Assembly (NCBI RefSeq): GCF_001715195.1
Contig: NZ_MDWE01000024.1
Span: forward strand, 1 to 64,000
Reading direction: 5' to 3'
Origin: Rhodohalobacter halophilus
GTDB taxonomy: Bacteria > Bacteroidota > Rhodothermia > Balneolales > Balneolaceae
DNA: 64,000 nucleotides
This document shows positions 2,690-12,426 of the stretch, in pieces (positions within the stretch are counted from its first letter, which is position 1; each line of letters begins with the position of its first letter). The notes beneath the pieces are model-generated. The model saw nothing but the letters and a program-made list of their open reading frames with translations. It had not been told where the DNA came from and did no database searches. The translations under genes and the position numbers were made by a program.

Positions 2690-3964
2690 TTACTGCACGG
2701 TTACTTCAAAACAGTGAATACCATCATTATATGAATAATTGATTTGATAGTCGTAGAGGTCACAAATTGCCTTTATAATAGCCAGGCCGAGTCCGTTTCC
2801 GTGCTTTGAACCGGGGTTCTTTGAAAAACGCTTAAATAGTTTTTCTCTGTCAAGTCTGTCCTCTGTAGAGCTATTACAGATCCTAAATGAGTTGTATCCG
2901 ATAGAAATGTTAACATTTCCTCCCGGTTTATTGTGATTAATGGCATTCACCAAAAGGTTTTGGAGCATTACCTCGGTAAGATAGGGGTTAGCTTCTACAT
3001 AAAGAGGCGCATCATCTTCATCGATCTGAATGGATATCTGTTTGTATGAAGTAAGATCTTCAAGATTTTCCATCAGGCTACGAATCATATCACCAATCGA
3101 TATACGTTCGTTTTCTACAAATTGGTTATTATCGATTCGGCTAAGCAGGAGAAGTGATTTGTTTAGCTGATTTAGTCGCGATGTTATATCCAGAATTTCA
3201 CCAACCGTGGCAGCATCCTGCTCACTTAGTTCTGCTTTTTCAAGTAGGAGCTCAAGTTTACTTGTAATGACAGCTATTGGTGTTTGAAGCTCATGGGCAG
3301 CATTTTCAGTAAAATGTTTCTGATTGATGTATGATTTCCTAGTTCTTTCAATCAGTTCATCGGCTACGCGTTTCAGTTCTTGAAACTCAGTTGTTGAAGA
3401 TTGTATGTCAGTTAATCCTGAGCTCTGTTCAACCCGATAATCCTTTAGATCTTTAAGAACCGTGTAGAAAGGTGACCATAGATTTTTCAGAGCCCAATTG
3501 TTAATAAGAACGATAGTGAGAATAAGTGCAATGTAGAGCCAAATGATAAACCAGAACATGCTCTCTACTAAATCATCTTCCTCCACAGTAGAGGAGACCA
3601 CCTGGTATTTGTAGTATTGGCCTTTTACCTGATAAGCCTCTGTCAGCATTCGAACCTGCTCAAGATCATTGCTGAATGGAAGAGGCATAAGCGTATTTCG
3701 AAATACTTCTTCCTGATAAACCAGGGCCTCCTCGTATGTAATAGGAGAGATTGAGAACATACCATCTTCAAAACTCGTGCTTTCCAAAAGGGAAGGGTCT
3801 TCTTTCACCCGTGAATCCAGCAGCTCCAGCTGATCTTCGAGGTTGTCATCAACAATGTCGTACACTTCATCACGAAAGCCGAAATAAAAGATGACTGACC
3901 AAATTCCGACTACCACTAAAATGGATACGGCCAGATATTGCAGTGATCGATTAAGCAGCCTCAT
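2690..3964 (-). CDS. membrane sensor histidine kinase
   Basis: A 424-residue kinase of the EnvZ/QseC layout. TM1 is at about residues 9-30, an acidic periplasmic sensor region of about 105 residues follows, and TM2 is at about 136-156. The HisKA box (NAAHELQTP, phospho-acceptor His224) and an HATPase domain with the N box (LLVNAINHNKPGG) and G box (GNGLGLAI) complete it. The kinase should autophosphorylate in response to an envelope signal and pass phosphate to the regulator encoded immediately upstream; the two genes overlap by 4 bp (ATGA), so they are translationally coupled. With the PepSY-like gene and perhaps the porin it forms an envelope-sensing module. The signal is unknown. Confidence 0.92.
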   Translation of the reverse strand: MRLLNRSLQYLAVSILVVVGIWSVIFYFGFRDEVYDIVDDNLEDQLELLDSRVKEDPSLLESTSFEDGMFSISPITYEEALVYQEEVFRNTLMPLPFSNDLEQVRMLTEAYQVKGQYYKYQVVSSTVEEDDLVESMFWFIIWLYIALILTIVLINNWALKNLWSPFYTVLKDLKDYRVEQSSGLTDIQSSTTEFQELKRVADELIERTRKSYINQKHFTENAAHELQTPIAVITSKLELLLEKAELSEQDAATVGEILDITSRLNQLNKSLLLLSRIDNNQFVENERISIGDMIRSLMENLEDLTSYKQISIQIDEDDAPLYVEANPYLTEVMLQNLLVNAINHNKPGGNVNISIGYNSFRICNSSTEDRLDREKLFKRFSKNPGSKHGNGLGLAIIKAICDLYDYQINYSYNDGIHCFEVTVQ

Positions 3965-4638
3965 GATTTTTCCAATTTATAGCCAACTCCGTATACGGCT
4001 TTAATTTCAACTGATGCTCCGGCTTCGTCAAGCTTTTTTCGGAGGTTGGTGATTTGATAGTATATAAAATCGAAGTTATCGGCTTGATCAATGTGATCTC
4101 CCCAAACGTGTTCGGCCAGACCGGTACGGGTAATCAGGCGGTTTTTGTTGATGAGAAAATATTTTAAAACGTCAAATTCTTTTCGGTTTAACGTGATGGG
4201 CTCTTTATTGATAGTGACTTTTCTGTTATCCGGATCAAGGCTTACATTCCCGTAATCTATAGTTGATTTTCCTTCCAGCGTATTTCGTCGCAAAACTGCT
4301 TTTACACGAGCGGTCAGTTCTGCCAGGTGAAACGGCTTTGTAAGATAATCATCCGCGCCAAGTTCAAGTCCTTTGATTTTGTCATCGAGAGAATCCTTTG
4401 CAGAAATGATGATTACATTCTCAGTTTTACCTTTCTCATTTAATTGTTCAAGAATTTGCAGGCCGCTCCCGTTTGGCAACATTATGTCCAGCAAAATACA
4501 GTCGTAATCATATACAAACACCTTTTCCACTGCAGAAAGATAGTCGGAGGCTGTTTCCACTACATAGTGCTCTTTTTTCAGAGAATCTTCGATACTCTTC
4601 AACAGTCCGGGTTCGTCTTCAATAACTAAAATTTTCAT
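3961..4638 (-). CDS. OmpR-family response regulator
   Basis: A 225-residue DNA-binding regulator. The receiver domain (1-115) has the acidic pair E7/D8, phospho-acceptor D51 (CILLDIMLP), the conserved Thr/Ser region (IIISAKD) and Lys in TKPF. The C-terminal winged helix (about 125-224) has the OmpR-type ending (YYQITNLRKKLD, VYGVGYKLE). It is partner to the overlapping histidine kinase gene. Twenty bases upstream of the ATG lies the second copy of a motif found in front of the PepSY-like gene, so the regulator probably controls itself and that target. Confidence 0.93.
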   Translation of the reverse strand: MKILVIEDEPGLLKSIEDSLKKEHYVVETASDYLSAVEKVFVYDYDCILLDIMLPNGSGLQILEQLNEKGKTENVIIISAKDSLDDKIKGLELGADDYLTKPFHLAELTARVKAVLRRNTLEGKSTIDYGNVSLDPDNRKVTINKEPITLNRKEFDVLKYFLINKNRLITRTGLAEHVWGDHIDQADNFDFIYYQITNLRKKLDEAGASVEIKAVYGVGYKLEKS

Positions 4639-4767: not shown

Positions 4768-6093
4768 CTAAACTGAAATACCGAGTTTATCTATTCTCGA
4801 CTGAAACTGTTTGATTGCATAATTTAAAAACCACTCTTTTTCCAAATTAAATGGAATGACGTCATAAGGCTCAAAGATTTCGTGAATGATGTTTGTCGCA
4901 TCATTTAAAAGAGTCGTAAGAATGTCTTCCGCGGTCTTTTTGAATTCAGGGTTTTCATCAAGTATTCTATTGATTAAATACAGACCAAATGCAATGTGTC
5001 TGGATTCATCCTGTTTAAGATTATTCAGTCCTTTTCTAAGTCCGGGCATCAAGTCTCGATCCTCAAGCATGTTGTAGAATGCAGCATAACCTGTTTCCGC
5101 CAATGTTCCTTCAACAATCATATTATATGTAATGGAGGCTTTTAACTGGTTTAAAGGTGAAGGATCAATGTCTAAGTTAGTCAATGCTTCTGGTAGCTTT
5201 TCGTAAAAGATGGTTCTATAAAACGGGCCATGAAATCTCTCGGCATTAGGTATTCCTTTATAAACTTCTTGTTGATATAATGAGAAAAATTCAACGTGTT
5301 TCGCTTCCTCCCACAAAAATGATGTGAGATACATTTCCTCTTCCAGCCTTCCCTCATTGCTTATGACCTTAATAAGTGGAAGGAGGTCGGATGTAACAGC
5401 TTCTTCTCCGGCTAAAAAAAGAGAAGTTAAATGTAAAAGAATCTCTTTCTCCTCTTTGGTTAGTTGGGTCCATTGTTCACGATCTGTTGTCAGGTCTATA
5501 TTTGATGGATTCCAGATTCCAAATTGTTTTGCTTTCTGAAAGAGCTTCATCGGAAAACTGTCGTGATCGATGCCTTTCCTTGTTGTTTTAAATGACTTTC
5601 TGTTTTTCCTGACAACTTTTTCCTGGATTTTTGGTGAATTATTTATGACCTGACTATGCCCCAAAATGGGAGCTGCTTTAATGAGCTCTATTGCCGCTTT
5701 TCTCTGTATGGATAAAAGTACCAGGCTACCTTTTTCCATTGAGATTTTGCCGAGCATAATCAGTTTTGTAGGATCTCTGTCTCTTTCAATTAAACGAATC
5801 CATGCCTCTTCGGTGGCTTTTAATATTACATCACTTATAGGTTCATCTTCCGGAGTTGCATATCGTAACTCTTCACACTTTCCATATTTTAAATCCAGGT
5901 AAACGCCGGTTATATCTTGCTCTTTCAAATGGTTGATGGAAGGAGTGGTTATTTTTAGAATGATAGGCGCATTCCATCCTTTTCCCTGTTGGCGATAGTT
6001 TTCACTGTTGTTGATATTTTCTTTCCACTGCTTGAGCCACTTCTCAGAAAAATATCCGGTCTCTTTCTCTTTACTTTTTTTATTGAACCACAT
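4768..6093 (-). CDS. SCP2-like lipid-binding domain fused to an R2-like ligand-binding oxidase (R2lox)
   Basis: The 441-residue form starts at ATG 6091-6093. An 18-residue extension from a TTG at 6145-6147 is less likely: that TTG lies inside a TAGATTTG -7-like box. Residues about 12-145 resemble sterol-carrier-protein-2 domains (Trp-rich start, GVYLDLKYGKCEEL, EEAWIRLI, DPTKLIMLGK). Residues about 185-441 are a ferritin-like R2 fold. Metal ligands appear as E230, E263-x-x-H266, E328 and E363-x-x-H366. V233 (three after the first Glu) and Y323 (five before E328) sit where R2lox proteins form their Tyr-Val ether crosslink. R2lox proteins carry a Mn/Fe cofactor and bind a long-chain fatty acid; their substrate is unknown. 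A lipid-binding domain fused in front fits a lipid-oxidising role, which is inference. The gene stands alone, divergent from mnmG. Confidence 0.8.
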   Translation of the reverse strand: MWFNKKSKEKETGYFSEKWLKQWKENINNSENYRQQGKGWNAPIILKITTPSINHLKEQDITGVYLDLKYGKCEELRYATPEDEPISDVILKATEEAWIRLIERDRDPTKLIMLGKISMEKGSLVLLSIQRKAAIELIKAAPILGHSQVINNSPKIQEKVVRKNRKSFKTTRKGIDHDSFPMKLFQKAKQFGIWNPSNIDLTTDREQWTQLTKEEKEILLHLTSLFLAGEEAVTSDLLPLIKVISNEGRLEEEMYLTSFLWEEAKHVEFFSLYQQEVYKGIPNAERFHGPFYRTIFYEKLPEALTNLDIDPSPLNQLKASITYNMIVEGTLAETGYAAFYNMLEDRDLMPGLRKGLNNLKQDESRHIAFGLYLINRILDENPEFKKTAEDILTTLLNDATNIIHEIFEPYDVIPFNLEKEWFLNYAIKQFQSRIDKLGISV

Positions 6094-8148: not shown

Positions 8149-8790
8149 TTGTTTCACGTGAAACATCAGATTGAAGAGATAAAGGTTGAAAAAGAAGTGC
8201 TTGCTAATGCAAGGAAGTTATACTCAAAACACAGTGAGCTTCTTGAGTCATATATTGATCATTTACTCGAGTGGAACTCAAAAATCAATCTTGTGAGTCG
8301 CAATGTTTCACGTGAAACAGTTCGTGAGCATGTAATTCATTCATTGATTCCGCTTCAGCTTGGCTTGTTAAATGATGTTGATGAATGGATTGATTCAGGC
8401 ACCGGCGGCGGTTTGCCCGGCATTCCGCTATCAGTTGTATACCCCGAAAAGAAGTTTTATTTGAACGATAATGTCCGGAAGAAAATGCGGGCAGTTTCGG
8501 CAATAACGGAAAAACTTAAATTGAAAAATGTTGAGGTAATTCCCAAGAGCATCTCATTGGTGGGCATTAAAACTGGGGCGGGGATTGTGACAAAACACGC
8601 CTTCAAGATTAACGACCTGCTGAGGCTCACAAAAAAGAAGCCGTGGAAGAAGATTGTTATGTGGAAAGGGGTGAAAGGTGCGTATCAAGAGATGGAAAGA
8701 GTGCATTCGAATGTGAAGTGTACGATCTACTCTTTTCAATTTGATGAGGAATTCTATGAGGGGAAGGGGTTGGTTTTGCTAGAAAAGTAG
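8149..8790 (+). CDS. rsmG: 16S rRNA (guanine-N7) methyltransferase RsmG (GidB)
   Basis: 213 residues, normal for the family, which methylates G527 of 16S rRNA with SAM. The SAM-binding loop is DSGTGGGLPGIP; the start of the fold (LLEWNSKINLVSR) is typical. The start is a TTG at 8149, because a perfect parS site occupies 8150-8165 and encodes FHVKH; a second perfect parS at 8304-8319 encodes the NVSRET region. The ParB-binding palindromes are therefore written into the coding sequence. The C-terminal half (VTKHAFKINDLL) is divergent from the commoner S-R-A-F form. It follows mnmG closely and ends at a terminator. Confidence 0.9.
   Translation: MFHVKHQIEEIKVEKEVLANARKLYSKHSELLESYIDHLLEWNSKINLVSRNVSRETVREHVIHSLIPLQLGLLNDVDEWIDSGTGGGLPGIPLSVVYPEKKFYLNDNVRKKMRAVSAITEKLKLKNVEVIPKSISLVGIKTGAGIVTKHAFKINDLLRLTKKKPWKKIVMWKGVKGAYQEMERVHSNVKCTIYSFQFDEEFYEGKGLVLLEK
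8150..8165. promoter_or_regulatory. parS centromere-like site 1
   Basis: The 16-bp palindrome TGTTTCACGTGAAACA matches the bacterial chromosomal parS consensus at every position. It overlaps the first codons of rsmG. ParB binds such sites near the replication origin and loads SMC/ParA-dependent segregation. Confidence 0.93.
8304..8319. promoter_or_regulatory. parS centromere-like site 2
   Basis: A second exact copy of the 16-bp palindrome TGTTTCACGTGAAACA, 154 bp from the first, inside the rsmG coding sequence. Confidence 0.93.
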
Positions 8791-8826
8791 CTTTTATTTT
8801 TGGTGAAATGCTCACATCTTATTGGG

Positions 8827-8857
8827 GCTTATCGATAATTGTCGGTAAGCTTTTTTT
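8827..8857 (+). terminator. rho-independent terminator after rsmG
   Basis: A 10-bp stem (gcttatcgat with gtcggtaagc, two G-T pairs) and a 4-nt loop are followed by seven T. Confidence 0.85.
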
Positions 8858-8884
8858 ATATAATCGAAAATGATAGGGTGAAAT

Positions 8885-9838
8885 ATGTCCAGATTAAAAA
8901 GTTCAGAGCGTCGTTTAAAAATGATTTTAATGCTGCAGGATTCGAAAAAGAAACTGACAGTCAGCGATCTGGCGGAAGAGTTTGGGGTGAGTCGCAGAAC
9001 AATTTTCAGGGATTTTAATTTTCTATCGGATATTAATGTGCCGGTTACATGGGATGAGTACAGCGGCTATGGGGTAATTGATGGTTATAAAATACCCCCA
9101 TTGATGTTCAATTCACGTGAGCTCGCTACAATCATGGTAGGTCTCAATTTTGTAAAGTCGCAAGTGGATAAAAATCTTGTAGATGATGCAAAAGGTGTTG
9201 AATTAAAAATAAAAAATGTCTTACCGGATGATTTAAAAAGATTTATGGAATCACTTGATGACCGAACGGTAGTGGATCCATTTCTTCATTTTGGTGCAGA
9301 TAAAAAAGAGGGTGGAAATTGGTATCTGTTAAGTAGCGCGATCTCCCAGCAGAAAATAATAGAGTTTACGTACGAAAGTAAAAAAGATAGTGAGATCAGC
9401 AATCGTAAAGTGAACCCGTATCTTTTGGTTTTTTATAGAGACCATTGGAATTTGATTGGTTATTCACACATGCGGGATGCAATTCGGAATTTTGTGCTGG
9501 ATCAAATGGCGGAGGTAAAAATACTCGATGAAAAATTTGAGAAAAAACCAGAAATCGACGTAGAGGGCCTTATTTTTAATTCTAACGAATCGGGGCAAAA
9601 AATAAGGGTGGTGGTTGATGAATCTGTAGAACGCGCGTTTAAGGCGAATCTGCCGACTAAAATATTAAAGTTTGAGCCTATTGATTCTAAAAAATTTAAA
9701 GCAGAGTTCAATTTTGATAATTTGGATTATTTAAACGAGTGGTTGCTTCAGTTTGGAAATAATGTGAAGGTGGTGAGTCCGGAAAAACTAAAAATAATGA
9801 GAAAAAATTTACTGGCCGGTATGCTTGAAAATATCTGA
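8885..9838 (+). CDS. WYL-domain transcriptional regulator (YafY/DeoR-like HTH)
   Basis: 317 residues. The N-terminus carries a winged HTH of the HTH_11 type (KLTVSDLAEEFGVSRRTIFRDF, about residues 23-45). A WYL sensor domain lies at about 150-225 (ISQQKIIEFTYES, VNPYLLVFYRDHWNLIGY), and a WCX-like C-terminal extension follows. WYL regulators bind nucleic acid or nucleotide ligands and often control DNA-damage or defence genes; no target is evident here. The gene is a single unit between the rsmG terminator and a bidirectional terminator shared with gyrA. Confidence 0.88.
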   Translation: MSRLKSSERRLKMILMLQDSKKKLTVSDLAEEFGVSRRTIFRDFNFLSDINVPVTWDEYSGYGVIDGYKIPPLMFNSRELATIMVGLNFVKSQVDKNLVDDAKGVELKIKNVLPDDLKRFMESLDDRTVVDPFLHFGADKKEGGNWYLLSSAISQQKIIEFTYESKKDSEISNRKVNPYLLVFYRDHWNLIGYSHMRDAIRNFVLDQMAEVKILDEKFEKKPEIDVEGLIFNSNESGQKIRVVVDESVERAFKANLPTKILKFEPIDSKKFKAEFNFDNLDYLNEWLLQFGNNVKVVSPEKLKIMRKNLLAGMLENI

Positions 9839-9891
9839 TGTGAAAAGAGAGGAGGGAATAATATCAGATTAACCAAACCAGTCGATGTAAT

Positions 9892-9922
9892 AAAAAAAGG
9901 CTCCACATTGTGGAGCCTTTTT
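9892..9922. terminator. bidirectional terminator between the WYL regulator and gyrA
   Basis: The stem ggctccac/gtggagcc is flanked by an A tract (9892-9898) and a T tract (9918-9922), so it can end transcripts from both converging genes. Confidence 0.85.
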
Positions 9923-9951
9923 ACTTTCAGTTGAAACTTTAGAACGTAAGA

Positions 9952-12426
9952 TTACTCGACGGTTGGGGCATCGTCTTCGGAAGTTTCATCTTCATTGACT
10001 ACCCGGGTAACTGCGGCAATCTTTCCATCTTCATCGAGTCGCATAATTCGTACGCCCTGAGTGTTCCGACCCATGGTGCGGATTCCTTTACACTGCATTC
10101 GAATGATCTTACCGCGCTCCGTTATAACCATCAAGTCATCGTTGTCTGATACTTCTTTCAGCGCAATCAGATTTCCGGTCTTTGGAGTAACCTTAAGCGT
10201 AATAACTCCTTTTCCGCCACGGCTCTGTTCCCGGTAATCATCAACAAGAGATCGCTTACCGAAACCGTTTTCTGAAATCGCAAGAACCGTAGCTTCATGA
10301 GTGTTTTTAATCACAACCATATCTACAAGCTCGTCGTTATCATCAAGATTCATTCCGCGTACTCCGGAAGTGTTTCGGCCCATTTCACGGACTTCCTCTT
10401 CATGAAAACGTATTGCACGTCCGGATTTGTTCGCAAGTATTATGTTGCTTTCCCCATCCGTAAGTGCTGCTTCCAGAAGGCTGTCATCATCTTTGATGTT
10501 GATGGCAATAATTCCATCTCTTCTCGGGCGGCTGTATGCTTCGAGTGAGGTCTTCTTCACTTGGCCTTTTTTCGTAGCCATGATGATGGAGTGTGATTTG
10601 ATGTACTCATCATCATCCAGAGTTTTGACAGGAACAAATGTCTTAATCGAGTCATCCTTGTCGATATCAATCAGGTTGACAATTGCACGGCCGCGCGCAA
10701 GTCTGGAGCCTTCAGGAATTTCATAAACTTTTAACCAGTAACAGTTGCCTTTCTCGGTAAAGAAAAGGATATAGTTATGGTTAGTGGCAACAAAAAGATG
10801 TTCTACATATTCGTCATCTTTTGTTGTGGTTCCTTTCATCCCTTTACCTCCACGGCGCTGGCGACGATAACCACTTACCGGCATTCGCTTGATAAATCCT
10901 TTATTTGATATGGTAACAACCACATCTTCATCTGCAATCATATCCTCAATGCTGAAGTCGTCGGCAGAATAGACGATTTGTGTACGCCGTTCATCACCGT
11001 ATCGGTCTTTCAGTTGAAGGAGCTCATTTTTGATGATCTCTTTCTGTTCGTCTCGGTTAGAGAGAATTTTTCGATATTCGGCAATCTGAGTTACAATATC
11101 ACGATACTCGGTATCGATCTTATCCCGTTCGAGCCCGGTAAGCTTCTGCAACCTCATGTCGAGAATGGCTTTAGCCTGAATGTCGGTCAGTGCAAACTTT
11201 CGACGCAGTTCCTCATTAGCCTCTTGTGGATTCTTGGATGCACGAATAGTTTTAATAACCTCATCCAGATTATCGAGCGCAATTTTAAGCCCTTCAAGAA
11301 TGTGGGCGCGAGCTTCAGCCTGATCGAGATCATAAATCGTACGGCGAATAACGACCTCAATACGATGTTCAATGAAACGTTCAATCAACTCTTTGAGCGC
11401 CATTACTTTAGGTCTGCCTTGTACCAGCGCAAGGTTGATCACGCCAAAGGTTTGCTGCATTTGCGTGTACTTATAAAGCTGATTGAGTACAACTCCTGCA
11501 TTGGCACTTCTTTTCAGGATAATGACAATTCTCATACCTTCGCGGTCAGACTCATCCCGAATTTCAGAGATGTCAGTGATCTTCTCGTCACTAACCAGCT
11601 GAGCAATTTTTTGAATCAGCGTGGCTTTGTTTACCTGATAAGGAATTTCTGTGACTACAATCTGTTCGCGTGAATTTCGTAGCTCCTCAACATTGGCGCG
11701 GGCTCGCATCGTAATTTTACCGCGTCCTGTTGTGTAAGCCTCTTTGACACCTTCGTATCCGTAAATGATTCCGCCTGTAGGAAAGTCCGGAGCCGTGATG
11801 TGCTTCATCAGCTGCTCGGTTTCAATTTCAGGGTCATCGAGAAAGGCAACGGTACCGTCTACCACTTCAGATAGATTGTGAGGAGGCATGTTTGTAGCCA
11901 TACCCACAGCAATACCGGAAGCACCATTAAGCAGCAGGTTTGGCAGCATGGACGGAAGAACGGTCGGCTCGGTCAGTGTATCATCAAAGTTGGTCTGAAA
12001 ATCGACGGTTTCTTTGTTGATATCTGTGAGAAGCTCCTCTGCAATTCGCTGCATACGAACTTCAGTGTAACGCATCGCCGCAGCGGAATCACCGTCAATA
12101 GACCCGAAGTTTCCCTGGCCATTCACCAAAGGATAGCGGAGAGAAAACTCCTGAACCATTCGTACAATCGAGTCGTAAACAGCAGAGTCACCGTGCGGGT
12201 GATACTTACCCAAAACCTCACCCACAATACGGGCACTCTTTTTGAAGTTTCGGTTGTGAAGCATCCCGAGATCGCTCATTCCATAAAGAATACGCCGGTG
12301 AACAGGTTTCAATCCATCCCGCACATCCGGCAGCGCTCTCGATACAATTACCGACATCGAGTAGTCGATGTAGGACGATTGCATTTCGTCTTCAATAGAA
12401 ATAGGTATAATCTTTTCTGTAGCCAT
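9952..12426 (-). CDS. gyrA: DNA gyrase subunit A
   Basis: 824 residues. The breakage-reunion domain has catalytic Tyr120 in [11 protein letters not shown], and the quinolone-resistance region [11 protein letters not shown] keeps the wild-type Ser81 and Asp85. The GyrA box QRRGGKG is present in the C-terminal DNA-wrapping domain, whose six blades are visible as repeats such as [22 protein letters not shown] and [18 protein letters not shown]. The acidic tail is short. GyrA and GyrB form the A2B2 enzyme that introduces negative supercoils. gyrB lies directly upstream on the same strand with a 29-bp gap, so the two are probably co-transcribed. Confidence 0.98.

Follow-up and report, generated by a model that had tools for sequence, protein, structure and literature searches.

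In the 64,000-nucleotide stretch of Rhodohalobacter halophilus DNA analysed here (the window), a gene on the minus strand at 4768..6093 encodes, by its translation from an ATG at 6093, a protein of 441 amino acids plus a stop codon, in which an SCP2-like lipid-carrier domain is fused to an R2lox oxidase. The start codon is backed by close homologues, the N-termini of which likewise read MWF-KK. The original prediction had placed the gene correctly; its reading frame is that of the minus strand, the plus strand across 4768-6093 containing many stops. A genome search showed the fusion gene to be present as a single copy. Three parts can be distinguished, all on the minus strand: the SCP2-like domain (amino acids 14-142; 5668..6054), recognised by Pfam PF02036, by a phmmer match to TT1886 and by a predicted fold resembling 2cx7; a linker (amino acids 143-164; 5602..5667), delimited from the predicted model and an alignment of homologues; and the R2lox domain (amino acids 165-441; 4771..5601), assigned by NCBIfam NF006202 and by PDB entries 6qrz, 7qbk and 4hr0. 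With the chain modelled in full, AlphaFold2 (mean pLDDT 87.5) predicts the two domains well and leaves the linker disordered at about residues 146-159 (pLDDT <50); the linker is flexible, and among homologues it is 19-52 residues long.

How good is the case that the N-terminal half is SCP2-like, as had been proposed? The Pfam SCP2 profile (PF02036, cut-off 21.3 bits) scores 25.3 bits over amino acids 21-120 of the whole protein, and 27.1 bits when the N-terminal part is taken alone, while phmmer matches the N-terminal domain to TT1886 of Thermus (1wfr/2cx7) with E ~1e-10. Modelled by itself with AlphaFold2, the domain reaches a mean pLDDT of 91; the top structural match of this model in VIA is 2cx7 (Z 18.3, rmsd 2.3 A, 128 residues), Foldseek gives E 4e-11, and many further SCP2 chains match at Z 8-10; UbiJ, MFE-2, mosquito SCP2 and the alkylsulfatase SCP2-like domains rank below 2cx7. 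Profile and predicted fold thus agree with the proposal. The nearest solved relative, T. thermophilus TT1886 (1wfr, 2cx7), is 27% identical, but is a stand-alone protein of 130-143 residues with no oxidase in its chain. The alkylsulfatases SdsA1 and Pisa1 (2cfu, 4axh; VIA Z ~8-10) resemble the fusion in combining an SCP2-like domain with a metal enzyme that acts on alkyl chains, although the enzyme is a Zn hydrolase of a fold unrelated to R2lox and the SCP2-like domain is C-terminal. We also observed an invariant cysteine (C73 in the window protein), in a G-x-C motif, throughout the subfamily of SCP2 domains partnering R2lox, and in TT1886 too.

When R2lox was discovered, it stood out as an Mn/Fe enzyme that has an unusual cross-link between Tyr and Val and binds a fatty acid at its metals; in the known structures it is a homodimer. 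The equivalog profile NF006202 ('R2-like ligand-binding oxidase') scores 353.1 bits over amino acids 166-438 of the fusion (cut-off 315), and the broader Pfam family Ribonuc_red_sm (PF00268) scores 82.5 bits (cut-off 33.6). The closest solved chains are 6qrz, 7qbk and 4hr0, and Foldseek matches to R2lox structures have E ~1e-17 and a TM score (target) of ~0.82. Residues were mapped by an ungapped alignment to PDB 4hr0 (GkR2loxI) over 221 residues, allowing for a 14-residue tag. With the GkR2loxI numbering and the minus-strand codon positions in brackets, the six metal ligands are E230 (E69; 5404..5406), E263 (E102; 5305..5307), H266 (H105; 5296..5298), E328 (E167; 5110..5112), E363 (E202; 5005..5007) and H366 (H205; 4996..4998), and the cross-link pair is V233 (V72; 5395..5397) and Y323 (Y162; 5125..5127). 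The same alignment places a tunnel residue at A332 (A171; 5098..5100), the meaning of which comes from published work: R2lox proteins conserve Ala171, where the R2 proteins of ribonucleotide reductase have Phe, and in known R2lox structures a long-chain fatty acid lies in a hydrophobic channel and coordinates the metals (PMC6399176). A332 is accordingly predicted to keep the fatty-acid tunnel open. No variation was seen across 33 fused homologues in the six ligands, V233/Y323, A332 or Gly229. By its family score and its residues, then, the C-terminal domain is a full R2lox, and so predicted to be a dimetal oxidase of Mn/Fe type. The original prediction fared well in these respects: SCP2 and R2lox are both found above family cut-offs, the N-terminal region of the predicted 441-residue structure is SCP2-like with the metal-site residues intact, all six ligands are there, and the cross-link pair lies at the positions it gave. 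GkR2loxI (4hr0), Rv0233 of M. tuberculosis (3ee4) and SaR2lox (6qrz/7qbk) share with the fusion the fold, the six ligands, the Val/Tyr pair and the tunnel Ala, but have only ~285-330 residues and no SCP2 domain, the window protein having 150-165 extra residues at its N-terminus. A divergent R2lox-like group in Acidobacteriota (L137-L142; ~220 bits, with a GERGVT motif) retains Val, Tyr and the tunnel Ala at the corresponding positions, and has no SCP2 nearby.

Older annotations label R2lox 'ribonucleotide reductase small subunit'. Could the fusion be an R2 subunit that has gained an extra domain? The PF00268 match is what such a protein would give, but the NF006202 assignment, the Val/Tyr pair and Ala332 in place of the Phe of R2 all speak for R2lox. 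Moreover, the fusion is the sole PF00268 protein of its genome, and the only large-subunit gene there is a 1195-amino-acid frame, the size of which suggests a class II enzyme, probably with no need of an R2. We regard an R2 role as very improbable indeed.

In a survey of close relatives, scanning one genome per species yielded 63 loci, 13 of them fused (one truncated), nine split and 41 lacking any SCP2 in the flanking DNA. At the nine split loci the SCP2 reading frame precedes R2lox and shares its strand, mostly as a direct neighbour (at one, L031, there is one intervening gene). Besides the relatives of the window organism, fused forms occur in records labelled Gemmatimonadota, Calditrichia, Thermoanaerobaculia and Deltaproteobacteria (a MAG), while split forms occur in Acidobacteriota, in Thermoactinomycetaceae (Paludifilum, Melghirimyces and Kroppenstedtia) and in one relative within the phylum of the window (G230). 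The question of how widespread the fusion might be, raised with the original prediction, thus has the answer that it recurs in several phyla, either as such or as adjacent genes. Within the window's own order the gene was found in 39 of 128 genomes, as 32 full-length fusions and seven incomplete copies (cut off by a contig end or partial in some other way); these 128 genomes contained no readable case of an unfused R2lox.

The fusion gene lies divergent to mnmG in about 30 genomes of the family, a conserved place that marks it as old and vertically inherited there. The idea that it is an assembly accident, or a functionless chance join, draws on the fact that MAG contigs can be chimeric, but is refuted by the survey, both by the single syntenic place in the family and by the fused and adjacent forms spread across several phyla; we give it practically no chance. 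In the R2lox tree, fused and split forms are intermingled, with seven changes over 77 tips, so there has been fusion and fission, or repeated gain, on more than one occasion. R2lox often occurs without a partner SCP2 (at the 41 loci mentioned, and most of the genomes checked among these have none at all), so the SCP2 domain is an add-on to R2lox chemistry, and the carrier not essential to it. The neighbours of the fusion in the window, mnmG and a two-component system, are uninformative about lipids. We count neither as belonging to the system: the two-component genes (2690-4638, downstream) are not beside the fusion in relatives, and mnmG, despite its conserved divergent position, is a tRNA-modification gene.

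To see how specific the pairing is, we scanned 392 genomes of the window's phylum with a profile (A1) based on 15 partner SCP2 domains. A strong SCP2 of this type was present in 21 genomes, R2lox in 23, and both in 19; put otherwise, 19 of the 23 genomes with R2lox had an A1-type SCP2, against two of the 369 without (Fisher p ~2e-26, uncorrected for kinship). In 18 of the 19 genomes with both, the two are fused, and in the other (G230) they are adjacent overlapping genes. Similarly, among 149 Acidobacteriota a strong R2lox (>400 bits) was found in two only, each adjoining an SCP2 gene. The SCP2 and R2lox trees also agree well (Mantel rho 0.80 for 37 pairs, compared with a permuted maximum of 0.20). 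Shared ancestry partly accounts for the co-occurrence and the agreement of the trees. SCP2 and R2lox travel together, whether fused or split. In two genomes of the window's class (L155 and L156) a standalone relative of the partner SCP2 adjoins an M90 peptidase gene, without R2lox.

The neighbourhoods of the separate genes are more informative. Paludifilum (L031) and a second Melghirimyces operon (L097) share the gene order SCP2, Zn-ADH, R2lox, ALDH and a UbiB-like ABC1 gene, with ends overlapping or almost touching, and a shorter arrangement of SCP2, R2lox and the UbiB-like gene is found in four other loci of Thermoactinomycetaceae (L032, L035, L041 and L151). R2lox genes that have no carrier also keep suggestive company: in Bacillus (L058 and L061) they adjoin ALDH and Fe-ADH genes, in a Rhodothermales MAG (L157) R2lox is flanked by two ALDH genes, in Chloroflexi (L043:4804-7035, and L045 too) it lies 43 bases behind a fatty-acid desaturase gene, and the Geobacillus R2lox, again without SCP2, is clustered with ADH, ALDH, alkane and beta-oxidation genes (PMC10867098). 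At the Bacillus loci (Bacillus sp. EB600 and V3B; L058:1160-8050 and L061:5998-10719) two or three divergent R2lox paralogues stand in tandem with the ALDH and Fe-ADH genes. Conversely, partner-type SCP2 genes with no R2lox nearby adjoin Fe-ADH in two unrelated genomes (loci L094:3901-7359 and L161:3848-6859), one an acidobacterium with an acyl-CoA dehydrogenase gene in front and the other a member of Caldilineales with an aldehyde:ferredoxin oxidoreductase gene after. Thus SCP2 and R2lox each have, independently of one another, enzymes of alcohol-aldehyde-acid chains and fatty-acid metabolism as neighbours. A general ADH/ALDH link for SCP2-R2lox units was not found: outside Thermoactinomycetaceae most have neither gene adjoining, and their usual neighbours are unrelated genes, for example those for 5'-nucleotidase, DUF2911 and an endonuclease/phosphatase-family protein. 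An ALDH gene beside L042, suggested by a first clustering, was dropped, as tblastn saw none.

The UbiB-like ABC1 gene, present in every Thermoactinomycetaceae SCP2-R2lox operon examined (L031, at 8390-10156, L032, L035, L041, L097 and L151), raises the question of whether the substrate, instead of a fatty chain, might be a quinone or a prenyl lipid, in a reaction analogous to the quinone hydroxylation assisted by UbiJ or COQ9. Two known systems lend some colour to this. COQ9, working with COQ7 and with COQ8/UbiB, is a lipid-binding protein that aids a ferritin-like di-iron hydroxylase, COQ7 (PMC9774615); but COQ9 is TetR-like, not SCP2, and COQ7 is not R2lox, so that the comparison is one of how the parts work, with no claim of membership. 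UbiJ, the SCP2 protein of the complex that makes UQ (Ubi complex, 6h6n-p), holds lipid for O2-dependent hydroxylases (PMC9499169) and is the nearest SCP2 case, but here also we claim no membership: its SCP2 domain is only distantly related to that of the fusion, the enzymes are flavoproteins and the chains are separate. The ADH and ALDH genes of the same operons point instead to an alcohol-to-acid chain, the crystal structures of R2lox contain a fatty acid (PMC6399176), and, the UbiB-like gene aside, no quinone-biosynthesis gene was recognised adjoining an SCP2-R2lox pair. A prenyl or quinone substrate therefore strikes us as distinctly unlikely.

What, then, might the SCP2 domain be doing? 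It could be something other than a deliverer of substrate: an acceptor of product, a membrane tether, or an aid to dimerisation or stability. SCP2-fold domains fused to enzymes vary in role (alkylsulfatases and Eis-type acetyltransferases are among the Foldseek and VIA matches), and some, such as those of Eis and its acetyltransferase relatives, are not known to carry lipids; for the SCP2 domain of UbiJ, membrane docking and product release have been proposed as well as the binding of UQ intermediates (PMC9499169); and the linker is long and variable (19-52 residues). On the other hand, the pairing involves a single SCP2 subfamily, which co-evolves with R2lox and occurs also as a separate soluble gene product, as would be expected more of a carrier than of a structural add-on. 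We think these other roles rather unlikely.

The best explanation, to which we would give a probability of about 0.6, is that a long-chain lipid travels on the SCP2 domain, to or from R2lox, and that R2lox oxidises it. The link to lipids is well supported, and the substrate or product of the oxidase is very probably a lipid; beyond this we infer, from the comparisons made above, lipid binding, the direction of transfer, delivery in cis, the reaction and the identity of the substrate, with varying confidence. That the SCP2 domain is the carrier of the lipid of R2lox seems likely. Its cavity would shield a long chain (of a fatty acid or fatty alcohol, or an alkane-like or prenyl chain), and this lipid would be exchanged between the domain and, on the one hand, the membrane and, on the other, the hydrophobic R2lox tunnel. 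In the tunnel, O2 activated at the metal pair would lead to oxidation of the chain, most plausibly of a C-H bond and with hydroxylation slightly favoured over other oxidations; in the operons with ADH and ALDH, the product would then pass from alcohol to aldehyde to acid. The original prediction had taken the carrier domain as a clue to a lipid substrate delivered in cis. The lipid part of this is strengthened by the adjacent but separate SCP2 gene of other phyla, by co-inheritance and by the operons with ADH, ALDH and UbiB-like genes, while the 'in cis' part is not established, because the linker is flexible, R2lox is homodimeric and the SCP2 domain could take product or tether the enzyme; strict delivery within one chain has, in our estimation, somewhat less than an even chance.

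The accompanying statement that the reaction of R2lox is unknown is somewhat dated, GkR2loxI having been reported in 2024 to consume C10-C22 alkanes, although this evidence is weak, since the work was done with crude lysate and an E202A/H205A mutant lowered alkane consumption by only 11-21 percentage points (PMC10867098). More tentatively, and with the odds somewhat against us, SCP2-R2lox might be a self-contained and widespread bacterial module for lipid hydroxylation, in which a dedicated carrier draws a lipid out of the membrane and hands it on to an Mn/Fe oxygenase, as a counterpart of COQ9-COQ7, with a UbiB-like ATPase and ADH/ALDH sometimes completing the pathway.

A literature search, conducted outside most subscription journals and domain-architecture pages, found no paper that joins R2lox (or 'ligand-binding oxidase') with SCP2 or sterol carrier. 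Both halves are known families, and what seems new is the joined, co-inherited pair. A lipid carrier in the chain of an R2lox, with the two paired as separate genes in other phyla, offers a practical handle, the cargo of the purified domain being readable by mass spectrometry; and the recurrence of the pairing as neighbouring genes is a strong and testable hint that R2lox oxidises a lipid that the carrier hands over. If the interpretation is correct, identifying the lipid in the SCP2 domain would tell what the physiological R2lox substrate is, and the fusion would be an Mn/Fe enzyme for C-H oxidation with substrate delivery built in.
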